The notes under the pieces were generated by a model. It was not told the DNA's origin, ran no database searches, and worked only from the letters and a program-made list of their open reading frames with translations. Source: Chloroflexota bacterium (GTDB lineage Bacteria > Chloroflexota > Dehalococcoidia > UBA2979). From it: 64,000 nucleotides of DNA. Positions 21,057 through 30,776 of the stretch are shown piece by piece; position 1 is the first letter of the stretch; the number at the start of each line of letters is the position of its first letter. A program made the position numbers and the translations under genes. The stretch covers positions 29,896 to 93,895 of the forward strand of contig VGPD01000003.1 of the NCBI GenBank assembly GCA_016875635.1, given 5' to 3'.

Positions 21057-21269
21057 TTAGAGGCGGAGCTTGCCGTGGGACGGCTGGCGGCGGCGCTGTT
21101 TGCCGGCAGCCAGACGCTCCTCCTCCTGAATGTCCTGGGGGTCGGCTCGCTGCGCCTCGTGTACGTAGCCACAGGCGACACAGGTACCGAACTTCCCGTA
21201 CCAGTCATCTTCGACGATCATGAGGCCGCGGCAGCGCGGGCACTTCTTTGGCGGGGGGCTTTGCAGCAT
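21057..21269 (-). CDS. Small zinc-ribbon protein
   Basis: 70 aa. Two Cys pairs, CPRCRGLMI near the start and CVACGYVHE about 20 residues on, form a zinc ribbon; the tail is basic. The ATG chosen has GGAGG at ideal spacing, 12 codons inside the track's ORF. Function unknown. Its transcript carries a c-di-AMP riboswitch 58 nt upstream, an unusual partner for this aptamer. Confidence 0.75.
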   Translation of the reverse strand: MLQSPPPKKCPRCRGLMIVEDDWYGKFGTCVACGYVHEAQRADPQDIQEEERLAAGKQRRRQPSHGKLRL

Positions 21270-21326
21270 CTCCGCCTCCTTCGTTTCGCAGCACGTCTCC
21301 GGCATCCCGCCGGTCGGGCTGTCCCG

Positions 21327-21448
21327 TCTGCCTCCGAGGTTAGCTGTCGGGTTCGGGCCGGTCAGTACGCCCGTCTCTGTGCGCCCTCGCTCAGAGATTC
21401 ACCCCAGGTATTGGGTCCCCCGGTCGCCGCCCTCCCGGACGGCAATTA
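21327..21448 (-). ncRNA. c-di-AMP riboswitch (ydaO/yuaA type)
   Basis: Reading the minus strand, the aptamer core shows GGGGGACCCAATACCTGGGG followed by TGAATC, and later CCGAACCCGACAGCTAACCT followed by CGGAGGCA. These match the conserved joining regions of the ydaO-yuaA aptamer (e.g. the Thermoanaerobacter ydaO RNA with CCCGACAGCUAACUCCGGAGGCA). TTGCC/GGCA closes P1. ydaO elements usually turn genes off when c-di-AMP is high. A small stem CCGGC-ggga-GCCGG lies just before the coding region. Confidence 0.9.
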
Positions 21449-21517
21449 GGCAAGTCACCCCACCCTCAATGCTCCTCGGAGATGACGTCCGTGAACCATC
21501 GTGATTGTGACGACAAG

Positions 21518-21545
21518 AGCATACTGGCGGTTAACGCCCTGTCAA
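21518..21545 (-). promoter_or_regulatory. Promoter of the riboswitch/zinc-ribbon transcript
   Basis: On the minus strand: perfect TTGACA, a 16-nt spacer and TATGCT. The start would be about 60 nt before the aptamer. The spacer contains GTTAAC flanked by GGC/GCC, a possible operator. Confidence 0.7.
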
Positions 21546-29181: not shown

Positions 29182-29994
29182 TCAGGCGCCCGTCGACACG
29201 TGCCAGCCCAGCACGCGTCTCTCAACATAGCCAACCAGTCCGGTGAGCGAAACCCCCAGCGCCGCGAGCACGAACACGGCCGCGAACAGCGCCGGAGTGT
29301 CGAACGCCCCGTTCGCGATCAGGATCAACTGCCCCATGCCCGACGACCCCGAGAGGAATTCCGCCACCACCGCCCCCACCAGCGACAGCGGCACGCTGAT
29401 CCGCAACGCCGCGAACACGTACGGCAACGACGAGGGAAAGCGCAGCCGCCGGAACACCTCCCACCGGCTCGCCGCCAGCACGCGCAACGCGTCGAGCGCC
29501 TGCGGGTCGACCGAGCGCAGACCCACGGCCGCGTTCACCAGCATCGGGAAGAACGTGATCAACGCGGCGATCGCCACCTTCGGGCCGATCCCGAACCCGA
29601 ACCAGATCGCGAGCAGCGGATACAGGGCAACGATCGGCGTGACTTTCACCAGCAGCGCCGGCGGGTAGATCGCGCGCTCCAGCAATCGCGAGTGCGCCAT
29701 CAGCACCGCCAGGCCGAACGCGATCACGCTCGCCACCACCAGCCCGCCCACCGCCGCCGTCAGCGAGGTCGCCGCCGCCGATGTGTACCGGCCGGGCTCT
29801 TCCACCAGCGCGCGGAACACGTCGCTCGGCGGCGGAAGCAGGTATCCCTTCACGTCACGCAGACGGACATACGCCTCCCACAGCAGGAGGATCGCCGACA
29901 GCGCAACCACAGGAGGCAGCACCGTCGCAGCCAGCGGCGTCCGCGGCACGCCGATCTCGGACGCCGGGGACGTGGAAGAGGCCGGACCGTTCAC
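29182..29994 (-). CDS. ABC transporter permease
   Basis: BPD-type inner membrane permease with about six helices and an EAA-like loop, ALRVLAASRWEVFRRLRFPSS, that contacts the ATPase. 270 aa. GTG start overlaps the ATPase stop by 4 nt. The track's longer ORF runs back into the ATPase gene and was trimmed. Confidence 0.92.
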   Translation of the reverse strand: MNGPASSTSPASEIGVPRTPLAATVLPPVVALSAILLLWEAYVRLRDVKGYLLPPPSDVFRALVEEPGRYTSAAATSLTAAVGGLVVASVIAFGLAVLMAHSRLLERAIYPPALLVKVTPIVALYPLLAIWFGFGIGPKVAIAALITFFPMLVNAAVGLRSVDPQALDALRVLAASRWEVFRRLRFPSSLPYVFAALRISVPLSLVGAVVAEFLSGSSGMGQLILIANGAFDTPALFAAVFVLAALGVSLTGLVGYVERRVLGWHVSTGA

Positions 29995-30776
29995 GCCGCC
30001 CCCGCATCGCCCGACCGCAACGCGGCGCGTACCGCAGCGGCGGTCGCCGCGAACGCCGGCGTCGACTCCTGCGCCTCGCTGCGCGGCCGCGGCAACGGCA
30101 CATCGATGACCGCGCGGACGCGGCCGGGGCGGCCGCTCATCACGACCACCCGGTCCGAGAGCAACACCGCCTCCGCCACCGCGTGGGTGACGAACAGCAC
30201 CGCGATCCGCTCGTGCTCCCAGATCCATAGTAATTCCAGCCGCATCGCCTCGCGCGACAGTTCATCCAGCGCGCCGAACGGCTCGTCCATCAGCAGCAGC
30301 CGCGGACGGTGCACCAGCGCCCGCGCGAGCGCCACCCGCTGACGCATCCCTCCGGAGAGCGTGGCCGGACGGTACCGCGCGAACTCCGCGATCCCGACCT
30401 GGTCGAGCAGCGCCCGCACCCGTTCCGGATCGCCGGCGCGCACGACATCGAGCGGCAGCCGCACGTTCGCCTCGACGTCACGCCACGGCAACAGCCCCGG
30501 CTCCTGCGCGACGAGTCCGAGGGCGTGCGCGCGCTGCGCCTCCCCCGGCGTGCCGCCGAGGACGCTGACCTCACCGCCTTGTGACGGCAGCAGCCCCGCG
30601 ACCAGCCGCAGCAGCGTGCTTTTCCCGCAGCCGGACGGCCCCACGACCGAGACGAACTCCCCCGCCCCCACTTCGAGGTCGACCCCGTCGAGCGCCAGCA
30701 GCGTGCGACCATCCGCCCCCGCGTAGCGATGGGTCACGCCACGCACGGCGACCGCGGGGATGGGGCTTAGGGTCAC
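29991..30776 (-). CDS. ABC transporter ATP-binding protein
   Basis: Nitrate/sulfonate/taurine-type ATPase. Walker A GPSGCGKST, Q-loop VAQEPGLLPW, signature LSGGMRQRVALARAL, Walker B LLLMDEPFGALD, H-loop FVTHAVAEAVLL. 261 aa. GTG start with GGAAGG upstream. First gene of the transporter operon. Confidence 0.94.
   Translation of the reverse strand: MTLSPIPAVAVRGVTHRYAGADGRTLLALDGVDLEVGAGEFVSVVGPSGCGKSTLLRLVAGLLPSQGGEVSVLGGTPGEAQRAHALGLVAQEPGLLPWRDVEANVRLPLDVVRAGDPERVRALLDQVGIAEFARYRPATLSGGMRQRVALARALVHRPRLLLMDEPFGALDELSREAMRLELLWIWEHERIAVLFVTHAVAEAVLLSDRVVVMSGRPGRVRAVIDVPLPRPRSEAQESTPAFAATAAAVRAALRSGDAGAA

Follow-up and report, generated by a model that had tools for sequence, protein, structure and literature searches.

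Many bacteria depend on cyclic di-AMP (c-di-AMP) for survival, and the targets it is known to control through RNA relate to the cell wall, potassium and osmolytes. Within the 64,000-nucleotide stretch of Chloroflexota DNA analyzed here (the window), an initial annotation placed a c-di-AMP riboswitch ahead of an unexpected gene, one encoding a 70-residue zinc-ribbon protein upstream of csrA and a two-component system. Is the riboswitch real, and is this gene what it controls? We consider it likely that a genuine c-di-AMP riboswitch here serves a dedicated target, an unnamed zinc-ribbon protein, and most likely turns it OFF. The computational basis for this account is an aptamer, a promoter, a gene, a conserved pairing of riboswitch and gene, a covarying pseudoknot and a synthase gene.

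Promoter, aptamer and zinc-ribbon gene

The covariance model RF00379, which describes the c-di-AMP (ydaO/yuaA) riboswitch, matches the minus strand at 21462–21314 over its full length (model positions 1–134). The match scores 79.7 bits (E = 6.7e-17), compared with a curated gathering score of 38 bits, and the low score that the initial annotation would have taken as grounds for doubt did not appear. The conserved core joining sequences GGGGUGAAUC and GAACCCGNCAGCUAACC, claimed from the outset to be complete, are indeed present in the RF00379 alignment. The aptamer is an ordinary member of its family, and by its sequence this copy is expected to bind c-di-AMP. A source of the ligand is encoded in the same genome, where a search for the synthase recovered one gene with a DAC domain (PF02457, 3.6e-40). 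Most relatives with the riboswitch also have a DAC gene. One genome, G049, is an exception, and no DAC gene was seen in four family genomes with riboswitches, three of them less than 80% complete. The full-length match, conserved core, promoter and synthase gene are thus as in other RF00379 riboswitches. What differs is the target, an unnamed small zinc-ribbon protein rather than the usual cell-wall hydrolases, K+ transporters and osmolyte genes, and the presence of a target-specific pseudoknot 3' of the aptamer. The view that this gene is an unusual target for such a riboswitch is therefore borne out.

Transcription of the leader can be assigned to a sigma-70-type promoter, TTGACA-16-TATGCT, at 21545–21518 on the minus strand. 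This is the sole promoter-like site within the surrounding 1 kb (about 0.0 expected in shuffles), and its hexamers, which the initial annotation had already picked out, are conserved across genera while the spacer is not. The mRNA would start near 21511. Just after the −10 hexamer, at the predicted transcription start, most family leaders carry a conserved block, TTGTCGTCACAATCACGA (also written TTGTYGTCACAATCACGA; minus strand, 21516–21499 in the window), that has no second exact match in its own genome. A GTGAT repeat often lies about 15 bases past it in family leaders. We regard the block as a candidate operator or 5' hairpin. Locus L164 has a weaker version, TTGAAATCACAATCGCC, and L170 has one that resembles it.

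The interval first annotated, 21327–21545, covers the promoter and aptamer, and the functional leader extends to 21269. There, 45 nt downstream of the aptamer, lies the ATG of the zinc-ribbon gene (21269–21057, minus strand, stop at 21057), which encodes 70 amino acids. We favor this start because homologues support it and because a Shine-Dalgarno (SD) sequence, AAGGAGG (21281–21275, minus strand), stands five bases before the ATG. A mechanical list of open reading frames gives an 82-residue frame from 21305, but this would start inside the pseudoknot and is the less likely of the two starts.

Conservation of the pair and its neighborhood

A survey of relatives for the same neighbor, one of the checks first proposed, supports the assignment of the gene as the target. 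The window's family was sampled with 36 genomes, its own included. In all 33 that encode the protein, its gene is preceded on the same strand by the riboswitch, at a distance of 35–78 nt; the remaining three, which are 75–86% complete, lack both. Relatives thus retain the same gene downstream, rather than a different one throughout. A wider scan, in which each species was represented by a single genome, retained 80 loci; the source records bore the labels Chloroflexi, Dehalococcoidia, Tepidiforma, Thermoflexus, Anaerolinea or simply "bacterium". The aptamer 3' core precedes the cysteine motif in 77 of these 80 loci from related Chloroflexota, and the RF00379 covariance model confirmed the aptamer in all 12 loci sampled. 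Four loci, L158, L162, L177 (G050) and L185 (G054), encode the protein with no upstream RF00379 match. They are not failures of the pattern search, as the covariance model was also negative. A class-wide riboswitch search yielded additional zinc-ribbon loci, including three from other families (L222, L235 and L243).

Because the two elements occur together in nearly all related Chloroflexota genomes checked, the unnamed protein looks like a dedicated c-di-AMP output. The zinc-ribbon-linked riboswitch is also the sole RF00379 match in 12 of the 33 family genomes, and these 12 include genomes of 1.1–1.3 Mb. Since the switch is kept in 33 of 33 genomes, 12 of which showed no other switched gene, the protein may be a main, still nameless output of the pathway. 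From these distributions, we suggest that c-di-AMP signaling in these bacteria has the protein as a dedicated, and perhaps a central, output. Its invariant tail and the pseudoknot described below bring this hypothesis within reach of experiments on one small protein and a leader of about 250 nt. The label "c-di-AMP-responsive", originally attached to the putative regulator, is apt only in that the mRNA carries the aptamer.

Could the riboswitch instead serve the genes beyond, with the zinc-ribbon frame a bystander? In the window, csrA, a response regulator and a histidine kinase follow downstream on the same strand, and the same trio lies 3' of the pair in some relatives, including L121, L126 and L130. 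Elsewhere the neighbors vary: riboswitch and zinc-ribbon gene stay together even where csrA, the response regulator and the histidine kinase are missing or replaced. Moreover, about 270 bases separate the zinc-ribbon stop from csrA, and the zinc-ribbon protein is itself under strong selection. We consider it very improbable that the riboswitch serves these downstream genes, and we rejected the operon as its target since the arrangement is not conserved. The csrA and two-component context, to which significance had been attached, is incidental, because those genes are absent or different beside the pair in many relatives. Two further features of these neighborhoods lie on the strand opposite the zinc-ribbon gene: cobT and cobS in the window, and a cobalamin riboswitch (RF00174, 35.6 bits; 1362–1223, minus strand) in L130.

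The zinc-ribbon protein

The protein consists of a CPRC...CVACG cysteine motif, a short helix and a tail, QRRRQPSHGKLRL. The four cysteines and the tail residues RRRQPSHGK are invariant across 33 aligned members. The tail residues stay the same even where their codons have diverged widely, as they have between the window and L067. This combination of an invariant tail and variable codons indicates that the homologues are under protein-level selection, and together with the start codon and SD it upholds the gene as first annotated. In a structure model (mean pLDDT 72.6), the two CxxC motifs sit on β hairpins, as expected of the zinc-ribbon fold, with strands at residues 16–22, 25–30 and 36–38, a helix at 44–55 and a low-confidence tail. 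By this model the protein carries a zinc ribbon, and it is predicted to bind zinc.

Pfam gave no match above its cut-offs. The best weak matches, Zn_Ribbon_TF (PF08271; 24.4 bits against 29) and Zn_ribbon_RPB9 (PF02150; 20.5 against 25.2), share the four-cysteine zinc ribbon. However, the window's protein lacks TFIIB or RPB9 partner domains and has its own distinctive C-terminal tail. Matches in NCBIfam were weak, with none past the cut-off, those in PHROGs were likewise weak, and PDB sequences gave no good match. The tail searched by itself matched nothing among solved structures, and we rejected it as a known motif. Foldseek fold matches were weak, with Thermus ZifS and the zinc ribbons of RNA polymerase at the top. 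ZifS of Thermus thermophilus (8yoz), the best of them, is also a small bacterial zinc protein, but an E value of 0.07, a TM score of 0.38 and 23% identity are no evidence of homology. A viral or plasmid origin was rejected, since no relatives were found on viral contigs and none of the window's protein on plasmids.

A zinc ribbon joined to a nearly invariant basic tail suggests docking on an invariant partner, perhaps the ribosome, RNA polymerase or RNA. As far as we searched, the protein family under control and the pseudoknot particular to it are new: we found no earlier description of either in the open-access papers searched, although the gene may have been mentioned before as one of unknown function.

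Pseudoknot and switch direction

Between the aptamer and the start codon, the minus strand at 21318–21299 can form an H-type pseudoknot, CCC-GA-CCGGC-GGG-AT-GCCGG, whose first bases are the last five of the aptamer. Compensatory changes occur in both helices: Tepidiforma-like leaders have CCU-GG-CGAGC-AGG-UA-GCUCG, L145 has CCA/UGG and L129 has UCU/GGA. The layout, which we picked after seeing the sequences, occurs in 49 of 77 leaders compared with 4.1 expected in shuffles. We then scored an alignment of 47 leaders, figures that favor the motif because leaders not alignable by eye were excluded: pairing holds in 95.1% of cells (81.0 in shuffles), both sides change in 57 cells (19.6 in shuffles) and the covariation score is 0.454 (0.216 in shuffles). 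Shifting the paired columns against each other by one to three positions abolished both the pairing and the covariation signal. Within the three-pair helix, two-sided changes are confined to a single pair and occur there in 16 sequences. In a leader found later, L222, CCU and AGG flank the helix GCCAG...CUGGC in the same manner, but a single additional base is present.

What this pseudoknot does bears on how the leader works. Twelve relatives, Tepidiforma-like, have a terminator (left arm AAGGCC and a U-run) directly after the aptamer. Its left arm contains the pseudoknot 5' strand, so that terminator and pseudoknot are mutually exclusive, and a simple antiterminator role would fit these leaders. 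Even so, the pseudoknot is more than a side effect of the terminator, because L144 and L148 keep it as CCC/GGG while the right arm of their terminator is still AGGUCUU and no longer makes the matching pair. The terminator-less leaders of the window's family also retain the pseudoknot; it precedes the zinc-ribbon gene and was not seen by eye in the non-zinc-ribbon c-di-AMP leaders listed. These features, along with the basic and nearly invariant tail of the protein, raise the tentative possibility, one we hold with some doubt, that the pseudoknot lies outside the c-di-AMP switch and adds a separate layer of control, perhaps as the place where the zinc-ribbon protein or a ribosomal component binds this mRNA. 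Against it stands the double use of the 5' strand as a terminator arm.

Neither the window nor its family shows a U-run terminator after the aptamer. Since no U-run follows, control in this family is probably translational. An outer stem that would enclose the pseudoknot and mask the SD looked convincing by eye in L109, L111, L130 and L136. We rejected it because the mean longest stem across 23 family leaders was 4.35 compared with 4.08 in shuffles, no better than chance.

The direction of the switch can be approached from two sides. Folding predictions for the window give an SD accessibility of 0.71 with the aptamer 3' core occupied and 0.30 with the core free to pair, and drops of varying size appear in four close relatives (L103–L106). 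This is the direction of an ON switch, in which the free core ACCUCG would pair with the SD and c-di-AMP binding would release it. However, mean accessibility over all leaders is alike whether the core is available (0.44) or not (0.45), and we rejected a consistent shift. The Tepidiforma-like leaders, moreover, set the terminator apart from the aptamer, which is the OFF arrangement in the tandem Na+/c-di-AMP riboswitch of Dehalobacter (PMC9337991). That system resembles these relatives in having a c-di-AMP aptamer followed by a separate terminator; it differs in its Na+ aptamer, which is absent here, and in that the window's family has no terminator. An ON switch in the window's genus is therefore unlikely in our estimation, and OFF is the most likely direction.

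On the OFF reading, the RNA would fold the aptamer (21462–21314), then the compact pseudoknot, then the ribosome-binding site. As the DAC enzyme raises c-di-AMP, the aptamer would lock and the expression platform would most likely turn the gene OFF. In Tepidiforma-like relatives, where the left arm of the terminator and the pseudoknot overlap, this would happen by termination of transcription; in the window's family, translation is the probable point of control. High c-di-AMP has been tied to the absence of osmotic distress and low c-di-AMP to osmotic stress (PMC9337991). The zinc-ribbon protein would thus be made at low c-di-AMP, in a state associated with osmotic stress, and may then dock on a partner that is itself invariant, for instance the ribosome, RNA polymerase or RNA.

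A bolder proposal, which we think rather improbable, combines these elements: the protein would be the core c-di-AMP output in this part of the Chloroflexota, a stress-time factor whose nearly invariant tail docks on the ribosome or RNA polymerase and which, in addition, recognizes the pseudoknot of its own leader. If so, one leader would combine a c-di-AMP switch with product feedback, and small zinc proteins would be a recurrent class of c-di-AMP target (also in L006, L007, L088, L091, L225 and L227).

Other c-di-AMP riboswitches, with downstream genes named by translation, precede different genes. In the window's own genome, two lie before glycosyltransferase-like genes, at 29939–30073 (minus strand) of contig C17 and at 68861–69016 (plus strand) of contig C2 in G000. 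The gene on C2 is followed by a D,D-carboxypeptidase-like gene. Among relatives, trehalose-phosphate-synthase-like genes follow c-di-AMP riboswitches in L009, L005, L095, L229 and L240, and an antiporter/NADH-dehydrogenase-like gene also occurs in this position. In L006, L007, L088, L091, L225 and L227, the genes just downstream encode small zinc-finger proteins of other families.
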